Assembly: GCF_000013025.1 (NCBI RefSeq)
Contig: NC_008358.1
Span: 930,001 to 994,000 of the forward strand
Length of the DNA: 64,000 nt
From: Hyphomonas neptunium ATCC 15444
GTDB taxonomy: Bacteria; Pseudomonadota; Alphaproteobacteria; Caulobacterales; Hyphomonadaceae
Direction of reading: 5' to 3'
Shown here: in pieces, positions 27,317 to 63,574 of the stretch
How the letters are laid out: each line of letters starts with the position of its first letter
Position numbering within the stretch: position 1 is the stretch's first letter
Notes under the pieces: generated by a model
Database searches by the model: none
Told to the model about the DNA's origin: nothing
Seen by the model: only the letters and a program-made list of their open reading frames with translations
Program-made: the position numbers and the translations under genes

Positions 27317-28327
27317 ATGCGCATGAAGATGTTCGCCGCAGAATCGATGGAAGCTGCCAAGGCGATGATCTTTGCGGAGATGGGCGAGGATGCCGTCATC
27401 CTCTCCGAGCGCGAAGTTGATGGCGGCGTCGAAGTGCGCGCCGCAACCGACCGGGCAGGGGCCGCCGCAAAAGGTAACGAACCTTTCTTCCTGCGCGAGG
27501 CCCGCAATCTCGGCCATGGCCGCGGCGCCGACAATCCGGTCTTTGCCCGCGTGCGCGACGCGCTGCTCTGGCATGGCGCGCCGCAGCGCTTTGCCGAGCG
27601 TGTGGCCAATGAAGGCGCGGGCCGCCGTCCGGGTGAGTTTTCCACACCCGAAGAGGCGATGGCCGAGGGCTTGTCCCGCATGGTGACCTGCGATCCCATA
27701 CCGGCGCGTCTTGACCGTGACATTCTCCTGGTGGGTCCACCCGGCGCAGGCCGCACCTCCACCGCTGCCAAACTGACCCGCCGCGCCTCTGTCGCGCGCA
27801 CCGAGATCACCCCGCTGGCCGCCGATCTGGACGGTTCTGCCGGGGGCGAACAGCTCGCCGCCTATCTGGAGCGCGAACGTGCCCAGATCCGCGTGGCCGA
27901 AACGCCAGACGCCCTGTTCAGCGAACTGCGCGCCCTACGCAATGAAAGCCGCCGCTGTGTGATCGATCTGCCAGCGATCAACCCGTTCGAGGGCGATGAT
28001 CTGGCCAGCCTTGGCGATCTCGTCGCTGCGATCCGCGCCGAGCCGGTTCTGGTGCTCTCTGCCGAGGGGCACCCGGACGATCTGGCCGAGTCCGCCCGTG
28101 CTTTCCACAGGGCCGGCGTGCGCCGCGCCATCCTCACCAAACTCGATGTTGTGCGCCGCAGGGGCGGGGCCATCGCCGCCCTGACATCCTCCGGCATCGC
28201 CTTTTCGCACCTGGCAATCACCCCCTTCATTGGCGGCGGACTCGTTCCGGCTGCCCCTTCACGCCTCGCCGCGCTTCTGATGGAAGACGCCCGCGGTGAC
28301 GTGATTGCCCTCAGAGGAGCTGCATGA
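27317..28327 (+). CDS. flhF: FlhF-like SRP-type GTPase homologue with altered P-loop
   Basis: The 336-residue protein starts like FlhF (MRMKMFAAESMEAAKAMI, DAVILSER) and contains an NG-type domain. The P-loop reads GPPGAGRTS at residues 140-148, with Arg146 in place of the usual Lys. The DTAGR-type G3 motif is replaced by IDLPAINPF. The EQL of the SRP signature (GGEQLAAYL) and the TKLD guanine motif are kept. FlhF sets flagellar pole position and number. The neighbouring flhG and ctrA support the assignment. GAGGACAAG precedes the ATG. GTP hydrolysis or even binding may be lost. Confidence 0.75.
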   Translation: MRMKMFAAESMEAAKAMIFAEMGEDAVILSEREVDGGVEVRAATDRAGAAAKGNEPFFLREARNLGHGRGADNPVFARVRDALLWHGAPQRFAERVANEGAGRRPGEFSTPEEAMAEGLSRMVTCDPIPARLDRDILLVGPPGAGRTSTAAKLTRRASVARTEITPLAADLDGSAGGEQLAAYLERERAQIRVAETPDALFSELRALRNESRRCVIDLPAINPFEGDDLASLGDLVAAIRAEPVLVLSAEGHPDDLAESARAFHRAGVRRAILTKLDVVRRRGGAIAALTSSGIAFSHLAITPFIGGGLVPAAPSRLAALLMEDARGDVIALRGAA

Positions 28328-28331
28328 TCCC

Positions 28332-29168
28332 ATGAGCTTTGCCCTTCGCAGATCCCAGGACCGTCCCCCCGTTCGCCCGCCCCCGCGGGTCGCGCCGGCC
28401 TCCGTCATCACCGTTGCCAGTGGCAAGGGCGGCGTCGGAAAGACGTTTGTTTCAATCTCTCTGGCCTCCTCATTGGCCCAGGCCGGCCGCCGCGTTCTGC
28501 TGGTGGACGGCGATCTTGGCCTCGCCAACGTCGACGTTCAGCTCGGTATTGCCCCTGAGACGGATCTGGCCGCTGTTGTGGCCGGCTGGGTCGAGCTTGA
28601 AGATGCCGTGACGCCGGTTGATGGCGGCGCGGGTCATGGCGGATTTGATGTGCTGCCGGGCCGTTCGGGCTCTGGCGCTCTGGCTGAACTGCCTACGGAA
28701 GAAGTTGCGCGCCTGGCTGCCGGTCTTTCGGCGCTGGCGCTGCAATATGATCATGTCGTCATCGATCTCGGCGCCGGTATCGAGGCCAACTGCATGCGCC
28801 TGGCCCGTTCGGGCGACAAGGCGCTGATCGTGATTACGGATGATCCCTCCTCGATGACGGACGCTTACGCCTTCATCAAGGTGCTTCGTGGTTACGCGCC
28901 ATCGGTAGAACCGCTGATCTGCATAAACCAGGCCGATACCCGCGCTGCGGGCCAGCGCACCTATGAAGCCATCGCCCGCGCCTGCCAGACTTTCCTGGGT
29001 TTCCGCCCGCGCCTGGCTGGAACGGTGATGCGCGATCCCAAGGTGCGCGACGCAATCCGTTGTCAGAAAACACTTATGTCCATCGATCCACAGGCCCAGC
29101 CTGTTCAGGATGTCATAGCGGTGGCCCAGGTGATGATGGGGCAAGCCTCAGCGGAGCTTGGCAACTGA
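28332..29168 (+). CDS. flhG: MinD-like ATPase FlhG (FleN)
   Basis: A 278-residue P-loop ATPase of the MinD/ParA family. The deviant Walker A is VASGKGGVGKTFVSISLA, the switch region includes VDGDLGLANVDVQLG, and DHVVIDLGAGIE holds Walker B. The signature VDGDLGLANVD is typical of FlhG/YlxH. It limits flagellar number by acting on FlhF or MotAB/C-ring assembly. ATG 28332 is five bases after the flhF-like stop, with AGAGGAG upstream, so the two are one operon. The adjacent ctrA gene has its own promoter. Confidence 0.9.
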   Translation: MSFALRRSQDRPPVRPPPRVAPASVITVASGKGGVGKTFVSISLASSLAQAGRRVLLVDGDLGLANVDVQLGIAPETDLAAVVAGWVELEDAVTPVDGGAGHGGFDVLPGRSGSGALAELPTEEVARLAAGLSALALQYDHVVIDLGAGIEANCMRLARSGDKALIVITDDPSSMTDAYAFIKVLRGYAPSVEPLICINQADTRAAGQRTYEAIARACQTFLGFRPRLAGTVMRDPKVRDAIRCQKTLMSIDPQAQPVQDVIAVAQVMMGQASAELGN

Positions 29169-29301
29169 TCCGTTCAGAGAAAATGAATCATTTCGTCTGT
29201 GTTCCAACGCTTTTTTAATACCTGTTAATAAAGGTGCGTTAGGATTCACAATGTTAACCAAAGCCGCTACGACTAACTTAAGATGATTCGGGAGACGAGC
29301 G
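29169..29301 (+). promoter_or_regulatory. ctrA promoter region with three GANTC sites
   Basis: The 133-base gap before ctrA contains three GANTC motifs: GAATC at 29185-29189, GATTC at 29243-29247 and GATTC at 29285-29289. CcrM methylates GANTC in Caulobacter and controls ctrA P1. TTAA half-sites at 29215-29218, 29225-29228, 29254-29257 and 29278-29281 are candidate CtrA autoregulation sites, although the first pair has spacing N6 rather than the canonical N7. Confidence 0.65.
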
Positions 29302-30015
29302 ATGCGCGTCCTGCTAATTGAAGATGACCGGGCGCTGGCCCGCTCAATCGAGCTGATGCTCAAAGCCGCTGGCTTCAACGTCTACCTCACCGACCTCGGT
29401 GAAGACGGCGTTGATATCGGCAAAGTCTACGAGTTCGACATGATCCTCCTGGATCTGTCGCTGCCGGACATCACCGGTTTTGAGGTGCTCAAACAGCTCC
29501 GCATGAGCCGTGTGAACACGCCTGTCATGATCCTCTCGGGCAATCCGGACATCGAAGCGAAGGTGAAAACCCTTGGCTACGGCGCTGACGATTACCTCAC
29601 CAAGCCGTTCAACAAGGACGAGCTGATCGCCCGGATCACCGCCATTGTGCGCCGCTCCAAAGGCCATGCCGAGAGCGTGATCCGCACCGGCGACATCCTG
29701 GTGAACCTGGACGCAAAAACCGTCGAAGTCGACGGCGAGCGTGTCCACCTCACCGGCAAGGAATACGCCATGTTCGAGCTGCTTTCCCTGCGCAAGGGCA
29801 CGACGCTCACCAAGGAAATGTTCCTCAACCACCTCTATGGTGGCCTCGACGAACCCGAGCTGAAGATCATCGACGTCTTCATCTGTAAGCTGCGCAAAAA
29901 ACTGCAGCAGGCCACGGGCGGCAATCACTATATCGAAACCGTCTGGGGACGGGGCTATGTGCTGCGCGATCCGCGCCCATCCCAGAAATCCAGCGAGATC
30001 GAAGAAGCCGCCTGA
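29302..30015 (+). CDS. ctrA: Cell-cycle response regulator CtrA
   Basis: A 237-residue OmpR-type response regulator with extensive identity to Caulobacter CtrA as I remember it. The receiver domain has the acidic pair Glu7-Asp8/Asp9, phospho-acceptor Asp51 in ILLDLSLPD and TKPFNKDEL with the conserved Lys. The DNA-binding winged helix has [31 protein letters not shown]. The C-terminus is Glu-Glu-Ala-Ala, the kind of tail that ClpXP recognises. CtrA governs cell division, DNA replication and flagellar genes in Caulobacter. The preceding gap has three GANTC sites, and a strong terminator follows. Confidence 0.97.
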
Positions 30016-49735: not shown

Positions 49736-51010
49736 TCAGCGCTTCAGGCTGGCCAGCAATTGCGGGGTGAGCGCCTTGTTGAAGCGGGAGATGTTGGCGA
49801 CCGATTCATGGGAGAAGATCGCGCCGGAATACCAGGACTGGCTCTGCCCCTGCATCGCCTGCATCCGGCCGATCAGGCCGTTTTCGAGGGCCTTGAGATT
49901 GAGGTGGGGGAAATAGCGCCAGTTCTTGACGTTCACCACGTTGACCAGCCGGGCGCCGAGATCGGCGAGATCGCGTTCCAGAAAGATGCGCAGTTCCGGC
50001 ACGGTATAGTCGCCGGGGATCTGGCCGGTGACATAGAGGTGGCCGCCAAAGTCCGGGCTGTGCCCCTCATAGCGCGCCGAGATCAGCTGGCCGGGATAGG
50101 AGCCCGGCAGGAACGCCTTGGAGAAGGAGCGGATGTCTTCTTCGGTAAACCAGTTCTCCACCACGATCAGCGAGGTGGCATAGCCTTTCCATGTGACGGC
50201 ATCGGCAACAGCGCGTTCATCCGTTGTCGGATCAGTGACGAGGCGTGACCAGTCATCCATCGGAATGGTGCAGGCCACCGCCTTTGCAGACAGGTGCTGA
50301 CCATCCTCGAAATGCAGAAGCGTTTCTTTCGGCGCGCGTTCGATCTTCGTGATCTGATGAGAGAGGCGGATATCGAAATCTTCCGCCAGAACTTCCCAGA
50401 AATTCGACCACCCCTGAGACGGCATGATCAGCTTGCCGGTGGCGCCGCTGATGATGGCGTGATGGTCCACCCAAAGCATCGCCTGATAGATCGACACTTC
50501 ATGCAGGTATCCATAGCCCAGCGCCGTGACCGCGCGGTACATCATCCGCATGATCTTCGGCAGCTTGTTCTCGCTCAGCCAGGCCTCGGCCGACATGGCG
50601 GCTTCGGCGAGGGCGCGCGGATCATCCGGGTTCTTCTTCAGACGGCCGAGCAGGGCCTGGCGCTTTGCCAGATACGTCATCACCTGCTGGGGCAGGGACG
50701 GGCCGGGCGCGGCGTTGACATAGTCGCGCATGCCGGCGCCATCGACCGTGGTGCGCCGGAGCATACGGAAGGGTTTGCGCTGGCGGCGCATCCATTTCAG
50801 CACGTCCTTGTAGGCGCCGGTTGCATAGCACGTTCCCATCTCGGCGATCAGGTCGCCAAGGTCCATGCTGTCTGATTTTCCGCCGATGCGCGCGGCCTGT
50901 TCGATCAGGGTGACCTGTGAATAGCCTGTGAGCTTGAGATACTGGGTGAGCGTCAGGCCCGCCGGGCCAGCGCCGACAATTGCCAGGGAAGTCCGGTTTG
51001 TCGGGCTCAT
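49736..51010 (-). CDS. FAD-dependent oxidoreductase (flavin amine-oxidase/monooxygenase-like)
   Basis: A 424-residue flavoprotein. The N-terminal dinucleotide site is LAIVGAGPAGLTLTQYLKLTGYSQVTLIEQAARIGGKSDS, and GGK is the FAD-contacting follow-up. Residues near 190-210 (KLIMPSQGWSNFWEVLAEDF) resemble amine-oxidase-like family members that rebuild FAD contacts. The C-terminal half includes HSPDFGGHLYVTGQIPGDY. The substrate is unknown. It diverges from the pseudo-histidine-kinase gene with only 88 bases between starts, so shared regulation is likely. Confidence 0.83.
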   Translation of the reverse strand: MSPTNRTSLAIVGAGPAGLTLTQYLKLTGYSQVTLIEQAARIGGKSDSMDLGDLIAEMGTCYATGAYKDVLKWMRRQRKPFRMLRRTTVDGAGMRDYVNAAPGPSLPQQVMTYLAKRQALLGRLKKNPDDPRALAEAAMSAEAWLSENKLPKIMRMMYRAVTALGYGYLHEVSIYQAMLWVDHHAIISGATGKLIMPSQGWSNFWEVLAEDFDIRLSHQITKIERAPKETLLHFEDGQHLSAKAVACTIPMDDWSRLVTDPTTDERAVADAVTWKGYATSLIVVENWFTEEDIRSFSKAFLPGSYPGQLISARYEGHSPDFGGHLYVTGQIPGDYTVPELRIFLERDLADLGARLVNVVNVKNWRYFPHLNLKALENGLIGRMQAMQGQSQSWYSGAIFSHESVANISRFNKALTPQLLASLKR

Positions 51011-51016
51011 AGAGAG

Positions 51017-51031
51017 TTATTCTTTGGTTAA
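51017..51031 (+). promoter_or_regulatory. Weak CtrA-like box between divergent flavoprotein and pseudo-kinase genes
   Basis: TTAT (51017-51020), seven bases, TTAA (51028-51031) matches TTAA-N7-TTAA at seven of eight positions. It lies in the 88-base gap between divergent starts at 51010 and 51099. A match of this quality may arise by chance in a window of this size, so this is only a lead. Confidence 0.3.
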
Positions 51032-51098
51032 CGCGACCGTGAAGGTCACACGGTTCGGTAAAAACCCATCTTCATCATGTCCTGTTAGTAACGGTCGC

Positions 51099-52763
51099 AT
51101 GAAGATGTCGATAGGCCTGTCAGACGTTGTACTTTTCCCGATCGTTGGGGTCGGGAGATTCAAGCGCCGTGAGACGCCTGACATCCCTGCCTATATGCAC
51201 CATCGTCTGGTGTCACTACTTACGGTGATGGGCTTCATCAACCTCGTCAATTCTGCCGCAGTTGTGTTCACTCTGTTTGGCACCACCAATACTGCGCTGC
51301 TGTTTGGATGGATGATCCCGATCTGGGTTTTTGCGATCTCGCAGATCGCCTGGAGCCGCAGCCGCTGGGACCGTTCGCCCACCCGTCCGGTCCGGGGACG
51401 CTTCCTGCGCAAGGCAGAAGTTGCCACCGGCGTTGTCGGCGCCTGGTGGGGTCTGTGCGTGATGCTCGCGCCGGTGGGCGATGTCGGCCTCAAGGTTTCG
51501 ATGTTTGCCATCGTGTTCGGCATGTGCGCCGGTGTGGTGGCGGTTGTCTCGCCGGTTGCCAACGTGGCGGCCCGCTTCCTGCTGGGCGCGGCGACCACGG
51601 CGACGATCGGATTTTTCCTCGCGCCGGTGGGCTTGCCCGCCACCATCGTCATGCTGGGCCTGGTGCTGACGCTTGCCTCGGCGTTTGCCAGCCTCAACGC
51701 TTATCGCAACCTGCTGATGGAGATGGAAGCCAAACGCCTGGCCGCTCAGAACCATGAACAGCTGCTCGATGCTGTGACCGCTATTCCCGAAGCCTTCGCT
51801 ATTTATGACGCGGCCGGGAATGTCATCATCCAGAACGCCGTTCACCAGCGCTGGTTCCCCAAGGGGATGGAGAAGACAGATTTCCGTCCCGGTACGGAGA
51901 TGCAGAAAGTTGCCGATGTTGGCGGCGTGATGCGCTCCTGTGTGCCGACGAGTTCGGGTGGGCGGGTTATTATCCATACGGACGTTTCCAAGATGGAAGA
52001 GCTGCGTCAGGAAGCTGACGAGTCCCGCCGCGACGCCGAAGAAGCGCGCCTGGCTGTGGAGCGTTTCGTCGGCTCGGTGACGCGCGAACTGCGCCTGCCG
52101 CTGCGCACCCTGCGCACGATTGCCTCGCGCTTTGAAACGCGCAGCCAGATCCCGTTCGACGATAATGAAGTGCGCCTCTCCAGCGACAAGATGGTCAGCT
52201 TTGCCGACCAGGCGCTCAGCCTCGTGGACGAAGTGCTCTCGATCACGCAGGGCGGCGACAGCATTGTCGACGGCGCCGATGTATCGTTGAAATCGACGCT
52301 GGCGCAGGTCATCACCCAGAAGCATTCGGCCATCACGACGCTTGGCGTCGACATTGATGAGCCCAGCGGCCAGGACGCGATGATCGACAGTGCCAAGGCG
52401 GCGCGTGTTCTCTCGCGCGTGTTCTCGGCGGTGCTGCTTGAGCTTGGCCAGGTGTGCCGGGGCGGCGGGTCCCTGCGTGTGCGCTGCGGTGTGCGCGGTG
52501 AACAGGGCTGGGTCTCGGTCGAGGCGGCAAAGCTCGCCAATGGCAAGATGCAGTCGGAGCTGACTGAGGACTATCTCGCCGAAAGCTCAGAGAACCGGCT
52601 TGTGTGGCGCGCGCTGATGCAGACCATCGGTGGACAGATCGAAATGCGCGAAGCGCGCAACGGGTCCATCGTCTACATCCTGAAGTTCAACACCAACGCC
52701 ACGTCGACCAAGTTGGGCGATGCCGAGGCGCTGGCGCGCCCGCATTCGGGACGCGCCGCTTAA
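51099..52763 (+). CDS. Six-segment membrane protein with PAS and degenerate histidine-kinase core
   Basis: The 554-residue protein has about six membrane segments (residues ~35-205), a PAS-like domain (LDAVTAIPEAFAIYDAAGNVIIQN) around 220-315, and then a coiled linker and a DHp-like helix. There the usual HELRTP motif reads SVTRELRLPLRTL, so the phospho-acceptor His is Arg329. The ATPase-like end has no N-box Asn and no clear DxGxG. It keeps IGGQIEMREARNGSIVYILKF. It is thus predicted not to autophosphorylate, and may act by binding a partner kinase or regulator. ATG 51099 is chosen as start; ribosome site weak. Confidence 0.75.
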   Translation: MKMSIGLSDVVLFPIVGVGRFKRRETPDIPAYMHHRLVSLLTVMGFINLVNSAAVVFTLFGTTNTALLFGWMIPIWVFAISQIAWSRSRWDRSPTRPVRGRFLRKAEVATGVVGAWWGLCVMLAPVGDVGLKVSMFAIVFGMCAGVVAVVSPVANVAARFLLGAATTATIGFFLAPVGLPATIVMLGLVLTLASAFASLNAYRNLLMEMEAKRLAAQNHEQLLDAVTAIPEAFAIYDAAGNVIIQNAVHQRWFPKGMEKTDFRPGTEMQKVADVGGVMRSCVPTSSGGRVIIHTDVSKMEELRQEADESRRDAEEARLAVERFVGSVTRELRLPLRTLRTIASRFETRSQIPFDDNEVRLSSDKMVSFADQALSLVDEVLSITQGGDSIVDGADVSLKSTLAQVITQKHSAITTLGVDIDEPSGQDAMIDSAKAARVLSRVFSAVLLELGQVCRGGGSLRVRCGVRGEQGWVSVEAAKLANGKMQSELTEDYLAESSENRLVWRALMQTIGGQIEMREARNGSIVYILKFNTNATSTKLGDAEALARPHSGRAA

Positions 52764-58840: not shown

Positions 58841-60838
58841 CTAGATGTCGAGCTCTTCGACGAAGGCGGCGTTTTCCTGGATGAAGCGGAAGCGGAGTTC
58901 GGCTTTTTTGCCCATCAGGGTGTTGATGAGGTCGGCGGGATTGATTTCGAGATCATCCATTGCCGCCGGGAGCGTGACGCGCGCCAGCGTGCGGCTGGAC
59001 GGGTTCATGGTGGTTTCTTTGAGCTGGGCGGGGTTCATTTCGCCCAGACCCTTGAAGCGCGTCATCTCGACCTTCTGGTTGCCCTTGAAGTGTTCCTTCA
59101 TGATCCGGGCCCGGTCGGCGTCATCCATGGCGTAATGGATGTTGCCCTTGTTCGAGAGTTTGAACAGGGGCGGCAGGGCGAGATAGAGCCGCCCGCTTTC
59201 GATCAGGCCGGGGGTGAGCCGGTAGAAGAAGGTGATGAGCAGGGCGGCGATGTGGGCCCCGTCGACGTCCGCATCGGTCATGATGATGATGCGCTCATAG
59301 CGCAGATCGTCGATGTTGAACTTGCGACCGAGTTCTGTGCCGAGGGCGAGGGAGAGGTCGGCCAGTTCCTGGTTGCCCATCAGCTTGTCGTCTGAAGCGC
59401 TTTCGACGTTGAGGATCTTGCCGCGCAGGGGGAGGATCGCCTGCGTCTCGCGGTTGCGGGCCTGTTTGGCGGAGCCGCCGGCCGAGTCGCCTTCGACGAG
59501 GAAGAGTTCGGTGCCTTCCGGGCCTTTAGCCGAGCAATCGGCGAGTTTGCCGGGGAGGCGGAGTTTCTTGGTGGCAGACTTTCGGCTGATTTCCTTGGCC
59601 TTGCGGCGCTTGGCGCGTTCATCGGCGCGGTCGATGGCCCAGCCGAGCAGCTTGTTTGCTTCCTTGGGGGAGCCGGCGAGCCAATGGTCGAAGTGGTCCC
59701 GTACCGCGTTTTCCACCAAGCGGAAGGCGTGGGTGGAGGAGAGCTTGTCCTTGGTCTGGCCGACGAATTCAGGGCCACGGATGAAGACCGAGAGGAGGAG
59801 GCCGGAATGGCCCATGACATCCTCGGCGGTGACTTCGGCGGCTTTCTTGTTGCCGGTCAGGTCTCCGAAATTGCGGATGCCCTTGGTGATGGCCGAGCGG
59901 AAGCCGGCTTCGTGGGTGCCGCCTTCGGGCGTCGGGATGGTGTTACAATAGGAGCGGGCGAAGCCGTCTGCCTCGCCAAAGCCGGCCTGGGTCCAGGCGA
60001 TGGCCCATTCGACCTTACCCTCGGCGCCCATGTCAACGAGGCCGGTGAAGGGGGTCTCGGTGATGGTGGACTTGTCGCCGAAGACTTCGGTGAGCTGGTC
60101 GGCCAGGCCATTGGGATAGGAGAGGACGGCTTCGGCGGGGACTTTGGAGTCCTCGGGAAGAAGCTCGGGATCGCAGGACCAGCGCACTTCGACGCCGCGG
60201 AAGAGGTAAGCCTTCGAGCGCGCCATCTGGAAGAGGCGCTGGGGGCGCCAGCGGAGCTTGTCGCCGAAGATCTGGAAGTCGGGCTTGAAGCGCACGGAGG
60301 TGCCGCGCCGGTTGGGCGCAGCGCCGACCTTCTGGAGCTTGCCGAGCGGCAGGCCGCGCGAGAAATCCTGGCGGTAGAGCGTGCGGTCGCGGGCGACTTC
60401 GACTTCGACGAGTTCAGACAGGGCGTTGACGACCGAGATGCCGACGCCGTGGAGGCCTCCGGCGGTGGAGTAGGCTTTGTCGGAGAATTTGCCGCCCGAA
60501 TGGAGCGTCGTCATGATGACTTCGAGCGCTGATTTCTTGGGGAATTTCGGGTGCGGGTCGATCGGGATGCCGCGGCCATTGTCGACCACGGTGAGGAAGC
60601 CGTCAGCGTCGAGCTTGATGTCGATGCGGTTGGCATAGCCGGCAACGGCTTCGTCCATGGCGTTGTCGAGGACTTCAGCGAAGAGGTGGTGCCAGGCGCG
60701 CTCATCGGTGCCGCCGATATACATGCCGGGGCGCTTGCGGACGGGCTCAAGGCCTTCGAGGACCTCGATGTCCTTGGCGGAATAGCCCGCTGTGCCCGCC
60801 AGCAGGTCGTCTTGCTTCATCTGCCGCGCTGAGGACAT
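58841..60838 (-). CDS. parE: DNA topoisomerase IV subunit B
   Basis: A 665-residue ParE. The GHKL ATPase has EVLDNAMDEAVAGYA and VVDNGRGIPIDPHP; TAGGLHGVGISVVNALS is the glycine-rich lid. The transducer and TOPRIM follow, with LFLVEGDSAGGSAKQARNR and MTDADVDGAHIAALL as metal-binding parts. The end has MKGLGEMNPAQL-like FKGLGEMNPAQLKETTM. It decatenates sister chromosomes with ParC. GGAG at a spacing of nine bases supports ATG 60838 over GTG 60856. A perfect CtrA-type box lies 73 bases upstream of this start. Confidence 0.96.
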   Translation of the reverse strand: MSSARQMKQDDLLAGTAGYSAKDIEVLEGLEPVRKRPGMYIGGTDERAWHHLFAEVLDNAMDEAVAGYANRIDIKLDADGFLTVVDNGRGIPIDPHPKFPKKSALEVIMTTLHSGGKFSDKAYSTAGGLHGVGISVVNALSELVEVEVARDRTLYRQDFSRGLPLGKLQKVGAAPNRRGTSVRFKPDFQIFGDKLRWRPQRLFQMARSKAYLFRGVEVRWSCDPELLPEDSKVPAEAVLSYPNGLADQLTEVFGDKSTITETPFTGLVDMGAEGKVEWAIAWTQAGFGEADGFARSYCNTIPTPEGGTHEAGFRSAITKGIRNFGDLTGNKKAAEVTAEDVMGHSGLLLSVFIRGPEFVGQTKDKLSSTHAFRLVENAVRDHFDHWLAGSPKEANKLLGWAIDRADERAKRRKAKEISRKSATKKLRLPGKLADCSAKGPEGTELFLVEGDSAGGSAKQARNRETQAILPLRGKILNVESASDDKLMGNQELADLSLALGTELGRKFNIDDLRYERIIIMTDADVDGAHIAALLITFFYRLTPGLIESGRLYLALPPLFKLSNKGNIHYAMDDADRARIMKEHFKGNQKVEMTRFKGLGEMNPAQLKETTMNPSSRTLARVTLPAAMDDLEINPADLINTLMGKKAELRFRFIQENAAFVEELDI

Positions 60839-60910
60839 GGACTGCTTCTCCGTCACTGAAAGCCGCCGATGACCCGGCGGAACTGTCGTGGCAGATAGGA
60901 GGTTAAAGCC

Positions 60911-60925
60911 TTAACGGCGCATTAA
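60911..60925 (-). promoter_or_regulatory. Perfect CtrA-type box upstream of parE
   Basis: TTAA (60911-60914), seven bases, TTAA (60922-60925), followed by CC, is an exact match to the Caulobacter CtrA consensus TTAA-N7-TTAA(C). It lies in the gap between the divergent parE and lon genes, 73 bases from the parE ATG and 228 bases from lon. A further TTAA is at 60903-60906. The rest of the 315-base gap has no gene I can support. Confidence 0.6.
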
Positions 60926-61033
60926 CCTTCGGCTTTCTGCCAGATAGCAGGACATCTGGCGGGGTTTGCCGGGTGGGGCAAGGGGGCCACGGTTGCGTAA
61001 GCGCAATTCACAGGATTGTTGAGCAGCGTTCAG

Positions 61034-61062
61034 CTTGAAGGGTTAAGCTGGGGTTTCCACAT
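61034..61062 (+). promoter_or_regulatory. Candidate heat-shock (sigma-32-like) promoter of lon
   Basis: CTTGAA at 61034-61039 followed after 17 bases by CCACAT (61057-61062) resembles a sigma-32 promoter. lon is a heat-shock gene in many bacteria. Distance to the ATG at 61154 is ~90 bases. The -10 match is partial, so this is tentative. Confidence 0.35.
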
Positions 61063-61153
61063 TCCCACTGTCGCCCAATTAATGTCCTAGTGTGGCATGA
61101 CAGGGTATAAGGGTTGCTGCTCAGCGGGACCCGAATCAAAGGAGGCACTTCAG

Positions 61154-63574
61154 ATGCCAAAGACAAAAACAGTGCCGGTGTTGCCGCTTCGGGACATCGT
61201 TGTTTTTCCTGACATGGTCGCCCCCCTCTTTGTGGGCCGCGACAAGTCCGTCCGGGCGCTCGAGATGATCGACGAGTCCGACAATGAGATCATGCTGGTG
61301 GCCCAGAAGGATGCGGCCGTCGACAACCCTGTGACCAGTGACCTGCATGCGACGGGCACGCTGGCGACCATCCTGCAACTCTTGAAGCTGCCCGATGGCA
61401 CCGTGAAGGTGCTGGTCGAGGGCCGCTCGCGCGCGCGCCTGGTGGCGCTGCATGACCGGGCCGAGTATTTCGAGGCTGAGGTTGAGGCCATTCCGGAAGC
61501 CGATGCGTCGGGCGCTGATGTGCAGGCGCTGATGCGCGCCGTGCAGGAGCAGTTCGAGAACTATGTGAAGCTTAACCGCAAGATCCCGCCTGAGGCGGTG
61601 ACCACGATCAGCCAGCTGACTGATCCGGGCCGGCTTGCCGATCAGGTGGCGTCAAACCTCTCTGTGAAGCTTTCCGACAAGCAGGAATTGCTGGAGATGC
61701 CGGAGGTTAAAGACCGGCTGGAGAAGGTCTTCTCGCTGATGGAAGGCGAGATGGGCATGCTGCAGATGGAGCGGAAGATCAAAAACCGCGTCAAGCGGCA
61801 GATGGAGAAGACCCAGCGCGAATATTATCTCAACGAGCAGATGAAGGCGATCCAGCGCGAGCTGGGCGATTCTGGCGGCGAGGGCGGCGAGCGCGATGAG
61901 CTGGCCGAGCTTGACCAGAAGATTGCCGACACGCCGCTGAGCCAGGAAGCGCGCACCAAGGCCGAAGCCGAGATGAAGAAGCTGCGTCAGATGTCGCCGA
62001 TGTCGGCGGAATCGACGGTTGTGCGGAACTATCTCGACTGGATTCTGTCGCTGCCCTGGGGCAAGCGGAAGGACATCGAAACTGACCTTCTCAAAGCCGA
62101 GAAGCAGCTCGATGACGACCATTACGGCCTCGACAAGGTGAAAGAGCGTATTCTCGAATACCTCGCCGTGCAGAAGCGGACCGGGCGCCTCAAAGGCCCG
62201 ATCCTCTGTCTCGTCGGGCCTCCGGGCGTGGGTAAGACCTCGCTGGGCCGCTCGATTGCCGAAGCCACGGGACGCGACTTTGTGCGTGTGTCGCTGGGCG
62301 GCGTGCGCGATGAGAGCGAGATCCGCGGTCACCGCCGGACCTATATCGGCTCGATGCCGGGCCGGGTGATCCAGAGCCTGAAGAAGACCAAGAGCGGCAA
62401 CCCGCTGTTCCTGCTCGACGAGATCGACAAGATGGGCATGGACCATCGCGGCGATCCGGCTTCGGCGCTGCTCGAAGTGCTCGACCCTGAGCAGAACTCG
62501 ACGTTCAACGACCATTATCTGGAGGTCGACTATGACCTCTCCGACGTGATGTTCGTGACGACGGCGAACTCGCTCAACATGCCTCAGCCGCTGCTGGACC
62601 GGATGGAGATCATCCGTATCGCGGGCTACACCGAAGAAGAGAAGCTGGAGATCACCAAGCGCCACCTCATTCCGCAGGTGCGCGAGGATCATGGTCTCAG
62701 GGATGACGAATGGATCGTGACCGACGAGGCCATCCGCGACCTGATCCGCTACTATTCGCGTGAAGCGGGCGTGCGGAGCCTGAAGCGTGAAGTTTCGCGC
62801 CTTGCCCGCAAGGCTGTGCGTGAGATTGCAACGGGCGAGCATACGAGCCTGACCATCGATTCGGACAATCTCGCCAAATATGCGGGCGTCCGGAAGCATC
62901 GCTACGGCCTTGCCGACGAAACCGATCAGGTGGGCGCTGTCACCGGCCTTGCCTGGACGGAAGTGGGCGGCGACCTGCTGACCATCGAGGCGGTGAAAAT
63001 GCCCGGCCGGGGCGCGATGAAGGTGACGGGTAACCTGCGCGATGTGATGAAGGAGTCGATTTCGGCGGCCAGCTCGCTCGTGCGGGCCCGCTCTGTGGAC
63101 CTCGGCATCAAGCCGACCGTGTTCAACACGACCGACATCCACGTGCACGTGCCAGATGGCGCAACGCCCAAGGATGGCCCGTCTGCGGGCGCGGCCATGA
63201 CCACGGCCATCGTTTCGCTGCTGACCGGCATTCCGGTGAACCGCGAAGTGGCGATGACAGGCGAGATATCCTTGCGTGGACGGGTGCTGCCGATTGGCGG
63301 CCTCAAGGAGAAACTGCTCGCGGCCCTGCGCGGCGGCATCAAGACGGTGCTGATCCCGAAGGAAAACGAGAAGGACCTCGATGAGATCCCCGATAACGTC
63401 AAAACCGGCATGAAGATCATTCCGGTGTCGGACATCCAGGAAGTGCTGAAACTGGCGCTGACCGGGCCTCTGACGGCGATCGAATGGTCTGAAGCCGATG
63501 AGGCGCGCCTGCAGGCGAGCCTGGGCGGCGGACCGGCCCCGGCAACGGACGGCGATGCGGTGCGCACGCACTGA
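61154..63574 (+). CDS. lon: ATP-dependent protease Lon
   Basis: An 806-residue Lon protease. The N-terminal substrate domain starts [23 protein letters not shown]. The AAA part has Walker [10 protein letters not shown] at residues 355-363 and Walker [12 protein letters not shown]. The protease domain has catalytic Ser677 in [10 protein letters not shown] and Lys720 in [14 protein letters not shown], 43 residues apart as in E. coli. Lon degrades misfolded and regulatory proteins; in Caulobacter it destroys CcrM, which links it to the GANTC sites near ctrA. GGAGG at 61141 fixes the start. A clear terminator follows. Confidence 0.97.

Follow-up and report, generated by a model that had tools for sequence, protein, structure and literature searches.

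Hyphomonas neptunium encodes a membrane protein that is a pseudo-histidine kinase: it has dimerization (DHp) helices of the HisKA type, the residue at its phospho-acceptor site has been lost in the orthologues and the gene is under purifying selection. The neighboring gene encodes an FAD-dependent enzyme, and we consider it rather probable, on balance, that this flavoenzyme and the protein work together, the latter as a membrane receptor that does without phosphotransfer. The window referred to throughout is the whole stretch of 64,000 nucleotides of H. neptunium ATCC 15444 that was analyzed (contig NC_008358.1, positions 930,001 to 994,000). The features discussed are listed in Table 1.

Table 1 Features of the receptor-flavoenzyme locus, with positions in the window.
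Feature	Position	Strand	Basis
FAD-dependent enzyme of 424 aa, obligate partner, related over its full length to the P. acnes polyunsaturated fatty acid isomerase	49736..51010	-	PDB 2b9w match
Divergent promoter gap, 88 bp	51011..51098	.	Well conserved among six close copies
Pseudo-histidine-kinase gene	51099..52763	+	554 aa plus stop; translated open frame
Membrane domain, residues 31-205, about six hydrophobic segments	51189..51713	+	Hydropathy; AF2 helices (low confidence); homology to GGDEF-EAL sensor domain
PAS-like domain, residues 206-295	51714..51983	+	NCBIfam NahK match 192-253; sub-threshold PAS_7 in L085; AF2 strands
Degenerate DHp (HisKA) dimerization helices, residues 296-384	51984..52250	+	HisKA match; AF2 model
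Arg329 codon CGC, replacing the phospho-acceptor His	52083..52085	+	SVTRELR begins at residue 326
Degenerate ATPase (CA) region, residues 389-545, without N, D and G motifs	52263..52733	+	Alignment; no HATPase_c; omega 0.044 (six copies)

Domain layout of the receptor

The ATG at 51099 is the likely start of the receptor gene, since a longer frame that begins with a GTG at 50928 overlaps the divergent flavoenzyme gene. Hydropathy shows about six peaks ahead of residue 205, in agreement with the six membrane segments proposed in the initial annotation. GGDEF-EAL proteins in related genomes, about 800 residues long (L215, L216 and L217), have a homologous membrane domain at their N-terminus; it is thus a shared sensor module, one without a Pfam name in the scans done. 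The AF2 model, which was built on three sequences and is of low confidence (mean pLDDT 52), consists of helices in the membrane part, a PAS-like block of strands at residues 232-295 and two DHp helices. Pfam recognizes the PAS domain of the initial annotation in relatives only, and there below the cut-off (PAS_7 in L085 and L126).

Loss of catalytic residues in the window protein

The segment SVTRELRLPLR places Arg329 at the position of the phospho-acceptor His, exactly as first annotated. Pfam matches HisKA to residues 321-383 with an E-value of 0.013 and 16 bits, below the gathering score of 26.9 bits, and the same kind of scan found no HATPase_c domain in the protein. When aligned to the intact, His-bearing relative L085, the N-box Asn and the DxG and GxGxG residues are absent or replaced; the missing N-box Asn had been noticed before, and the loss is wider than was claimed, as the D and G motifs are gone too. 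With Arg329, missing N, D and G motifs and a HisKA score under the cut-off, the protein lacks three marks of an active HisKA histidine kinase. Among the 23 HisKA matches in the H. neptunium genome, only the window protein (Arg) and DivL (Tyr) have no His at the site and, because the 21 others keep it, Arg329 is not a matter of chance.

Site residue and ATPase state among the relatives

Receptors were searched for in the genomes of the family and in ten named genomes outside it. An orthologue was found in 35 of the 37 Hyphomonas genomes searched first, and a clear copy in 74 of the 105 family genomes. In two more genomes (G119 and G125), frames some 800-840 aa long match the receptor profile weakly, at about 1e-6; these two are not included among the receptor-bearing genomes, and three other long frames of similar kind are, as judged from sequence, GGDEF-EAL proteins.

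The site holds His in 22 of 76 copies and another residue in the remaining 54. Within the genus, none of the 39 readable, full copies has His (Arg in 13, Thr in 10, Ser in eight, Ala in seven and Met in one). Ser is also found in a fortieth copy, a fragment at a contig end of G011; the G011 fragments are excluded from the count of 76. The possibility raised at the outset, that orthologues keep His and only the window copy is mutated, thus fails within the genus, while in more distant genera the 22 His-bearing copies do keep it, 19 of them in g15, two in g14 and one in g18. Arg is found in nine further g15 copies and Gln in all three g21 copies; g35, which belongs to another family, has Ala in one copy and Val in two. 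In the Met copy (L122, genome G026), the residue immediately downstream of the site is a His (MGMHLRAP), which might be a shifted acceptor.

The ATPase motifs are retained in the His-bearing and Gln copies and, within the genus, in the Ala copies and one Arg group. The Thr group retains part of them and the window group and the g15 Arg group none; N, D and G motifs are visible in the three copies from g35. The eight Ser copies of the genus stop at about 416-418 residues, with the whole ATPase domain gone. Arg, Ser and Thr together make up most of the His-less copies, so that one of these residues could be thought to be phosphorylated in place of His, but Ala, Val, Met and Gln are found as well and the window and Ser types are without usable ATPase motifs; we regard such phosphorylation as very improbable.

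HisKA phosphatases use Thr (or Asn) at position H+4. This Thr is present in 19 of the 22 His copies as against two of the 54 His-less copies, the window copy having Leu333, which is neither Thr nor Asn; a phosphatase-only HisKA protein is therefore given lower weight. The His-bearing relatives, which mostly have this Thr along with their ATPase motifs, may be true kinases. Ala at H-13, Phe at H-6 and Pro at H+5, on the other hand, are kept in all 76 copies. To judge from these residues, the helix architecture is retained while kinase and phosphatase chemistry have apparently both been given up.

The kept DHp helices, with their invariant Phe, Ala and Pro, would also suit a regulator that inhibits or stimulates an active histidine kinase by dimerizing with it, for which the laboratory-evolved ChrS acting with HrrS, as described in PMC9491836, is a precedent. 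Such a heterodimer would leave the link to the flavoenzyme unexplained, however, and the genome has no close kinase paralogue to pair with, the best matches of the window protein being 21-26% over about 90 residues; we hold it to be decidedly unlikely.

Selection and the number of His losses

Omega lies between 0.02 and 0.07 across all domains of the window type. For the six close copies considered, it is 0.054 over the whole gene and 0.022 in the H-box (for the pseudo-ATPase region, see Table 1); L118 was excluded, as a one-codon insertion gave an artefactual 0.43 for the pseudo-ATPase region. The Thr type gave 0.032 and 0.062 for five copies, without L141, which has a different background from the true Thr type, and the Ser type 0.185 ahead of the lost ATPase domain. 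No internal stops were found in the receptor matches. A former kinase that has lost all its catalytic motifs, and in eight copies its whole ATPase domain, could be taken for a decaying pseudogene, but the low omega of the window and Thr types and the stop-free frames show that the gene is not decaying; this reading is refuted by selection and is hardly credible. The suggestion that the protein acts without His phosphotransfer is supported, as a conserved protein is unable to use that route.

A tree of the pair was computed for 52 representatives from the receptor and flavoenzyme columns, with the site and three neighbors on either side removed. It needs four changes between His and non-His, and a single clade of all 33 His-less rows is rejected (p-AU 0.0033). 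The tree of the flavoenzyme only, to which the G740 sequence (see below) was added as outgroup, needs three changes and also rejects one His-less clade (p 1e-9). In both trees the window, Thr and g15 Arg types group together, and the other types of the genus stand beside the His-bearing g14 pair. His has thus been lost independently several times, and a single origin is rejected. If His was never regained, at least four losses are needed on either tree, or three to four under unordered parsimony; the precise number is uncertain, as long branches join in places and the tree program warns of long-branch joining.

Pairing of the receptor with a flavoenzyme gene

Both genes are present in 74 of the 105 family genomes and neither in 31, where absence is for some genomes taken from the search tallies; no genome has one alone. 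A Fisher value for this pattern disregards shared ancestry and is not relied on. When neighboring genes were clustered at 61 loci, the flavoenzyme family stood beside the receptor in 59, while other neighbors vary by lineage; at the two loci where it was missed (L087 and L089) the gene calling was at fault, the flavoenzyme being adjacent by coordinates in both. The pair lies on one contig in 73 of the 74 genomes, with 53 divergent, 10 same-strand and 10 convergent arrangements; in G011 it is split across contig ends, and in G102 a gap of about 2 kb separates the flavoenzyme from the receptor match. An order-wide search found the flavoenzyme in 71 of 398 genomes, and outside the family only in G201, G213 and G261, each with the pair. 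A scan of genome contigs was swamped by a generic FAD motif; of its 25 loci, use was made of the two that carry the pair, L190 (Henriciella) and L191 (Hyphomonadaceae). A search of 385 genomes of the class added one strong flavoenzyme match and two weak ones. The strong one lies in G740, an alphaproteobacterium of another family (L182, 5101-6450, E 1e-159 to the profile), and no receptor was found within 12 kb of it; the flavoenzyme can thus work alone, a point against the model with the receptor as its partner.

The surroundings of the pair differ between types. It is near lon and a topoisomerase gene in the window and Ser types (L127, L136 and window 58841-63574) and near mreB in the Ala and Thr types (L125, L126 and L134), a grouping of the genus loci that cuts across the tree. 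In the g15 Arg type (L109-L114 and L143), the two genes converge, with an overlap of about 28 bases, and a gene that from its sequence resembles a fatty-acid CoA ligase is found near the pair (L109).

Co-occurrence fits a direct and an indirect link alike, and a divergent pair could reflect ordinary transcriptional control via another regulator. The flavoenzyme gene might, for example, be regulated by way of an unlinked kinase or regulator on which the receptor acts, with adjacency resulting from a shared promoter or joint transfer, as the 53 divergent pairs with their common promoter gap would allow. Yet the 20 non-divergent pairs of the 73 are still adjacent or near, and no regulator gene adjoins the pair in the window, where the nearest response regulator of the genome, ctrA, is about 21 kb away. 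An indirect link is therefore unlikely in our judgment. Scans for promoters and terminators gave no match at the promoter gap.

The flavoenzyme and its probable substrate

The flavoenzyme belongs to Pfam Amino_oxidase, and all 20 aligned sequences share its FAD-binding motif and much of its core. Its closest solved relative is PDB 2b9w, matched over the full length (E 7.5e-21, 77.6 bits), whose entry group is presumably the six-structure set of the paper on the Propionibacterium acnes polyunsaturated fatty acid isomerase. To our knowledge, no receptor gene is known beside the P. acnes isomerase. The set of six structures of that enzyme is described in PMC2885616. The two enzymes are of the same size and FAD fold family, but at 77.6 bits the alignment does not establish a common substrate.

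A 4HBT_2 thioesterase gene is near the pair in 26 of the 61 loci (four members were scanned with Pfam) and adjoins or overlaps the flavoenzyme gene in several loci inspected. Together with the relation to the isomerase, this neighbor points to acyl or lipid chemistry, as a hint rather than a proof. The flavoenzyme probably acts on lipids or another hydrophobic substrate; that the substrate is a lipid is suggested by the distant relative and by the neighboring genes.

Proposed mechanism

We propose that the receptor responds through its membrane and PAS domains to a cue, perhaps a redox signal or the condition of the membrane lipids, that the DHp coiled coil still dimerizes and bends at the conserved Pro, and that the signal would then be passed on by protein contact, without phosphotransfer. 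Most likely the receptor would control the activity or membrane location of the flavoenzyme, or respond to its product. Physical contact, cue, substrate and direction of control are all what we infer. The constant pairing with the flavoenzyme and the lost phosphate residue suggest signaling by touching a partner, and contact is supported as the dimer helix is kept, every enzymatic route is lost and the partner has been kept through three gene orders. The fuller proposal, in which the receptor either controls or monitors a lipid-active flavoenzyme through direct contact, phosphotransfer has been abandoned at least three to four times and may be dispensable even in the His-bearing members, is offered tentatively, as a possibility that falls somewhat short of probable.

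Relation to DivL and the CtrA pathway

The initial annotation compared the protein to DivL of Caulobacter and suggested that it may tune CckA and hence CtrA. According to PMC4211667, DivL retains every ATPase motif (N, G1, F and G2), contains several PAS domains and binds DivK~P; it shows that a pseudo-kinase core can serve as a binding module. The likeness lies in a HisKA-type core in which the phospho-His is replaced, PAS input, Pro at +5 and a function for which phosphotransfer is not needed. DivL differs, however, in having Tyr at the site (Ala in one genus), intact ATPase motifs and several PAS domains, whereas the window protein has one PAS domain, about six membrane segments, Arg, no ATPase motifs and a flavoenzyme partner. 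Moreover, the DivL of this genome is a separate gene, L037, with YQLRSP at the site and at the position expected for HNE_0399 according to PMC7200025. Along the single chromosome of 3,705,021 bases, the candidates for DivL, CckA, DivJ, PleC, CtrA, CpdR, DivK and PleD are arranged as the HNE locus tags of that paper predict. The window protein was therefore rejected as a DivL orthologue.

A reader similar to DivL, with a DHp domain that binds DivK or a similar regulator and so tunes DivL, CckA and thus CtrA, has two points in its favor. Of the kinases in this genome, a hybrid kinase and PleC come closest to the kinase core found in His-bearing relatives, so that the family may have had ancestral links with the DivK branch. 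In addition, PMC7200025 shows that H. neptunium can do without DivK and predicts that DivL and CckA receive further, unidentified inputs. Nonetheless, the separate DivL carries the Tyr, the site in the receptor family holds Arg, Thr, Ser, Ala, Met, Gln or Val, eight copies are without an ATPase domain and the conserved partner is an enzyme, not a cell-cycle gene, with genomes such as G035 having neither gene of the pair. Nor were CtrA or CcrM patterns found in the 88-bp promoter gap. Tuning of CckA and hence CtrA is thus unsupported, and we weight this explanation lower than the model with the flavoenzyme as partner, as an unlikely one though worth keeping in mind. The ctrA gene itself (29302-30015) was rejected as part of the neighborhood, being too far away. 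It adjoins other genes within window 27317-30015, which we take to be flhF and a MinD/FlhG-type ATPase.

Comparison with other systems and significance

Subfamily II ethylene receptors of plants sit in a membrane, have eroded kinase cores and signal through contact with other proteins; their sensor and partner are unrelated to those of the receptor described here. DesK of B. subtilis, as far as its published description goes, is likewise a membrane histidine-kinase sensor linked to a lipid-modifying enzyme, a desaturase, but it is an active kinase with a response regulator, and no regulator gene lies beside the pair here. ChrS of Corynebacterium glutamicum, as presented in PMC9491836, also functions without its own ATPase domain; unlike the present natural family, which has no close paralogue, it arose by a laboratory-evolved frameshift and acts via a paralogous kinase.

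Apart from DivL, only a small number of natural bacterial pseudo-histidine kinases are understood. A description of the receptor-flavoenzyme pair was not found in literature searches and, as far as these searches go, pseudo-histidine kinases as such are already known, while their repeated origin in one family by loss of His, tied to one enzyme gene, is new. Beside a single enzyme gene, the family offers a natural series: His with an intact ATPase domain, Gln with an intact one, Arg or Ala with an intact one, Thr or Arg with an eroded one and Ser with the domain deleted. H. neptunium is genetically tractable, as described in PMC7200025. The series makes the role of a kinase fold without phosphotransfer testable, and it names the partner for that test.
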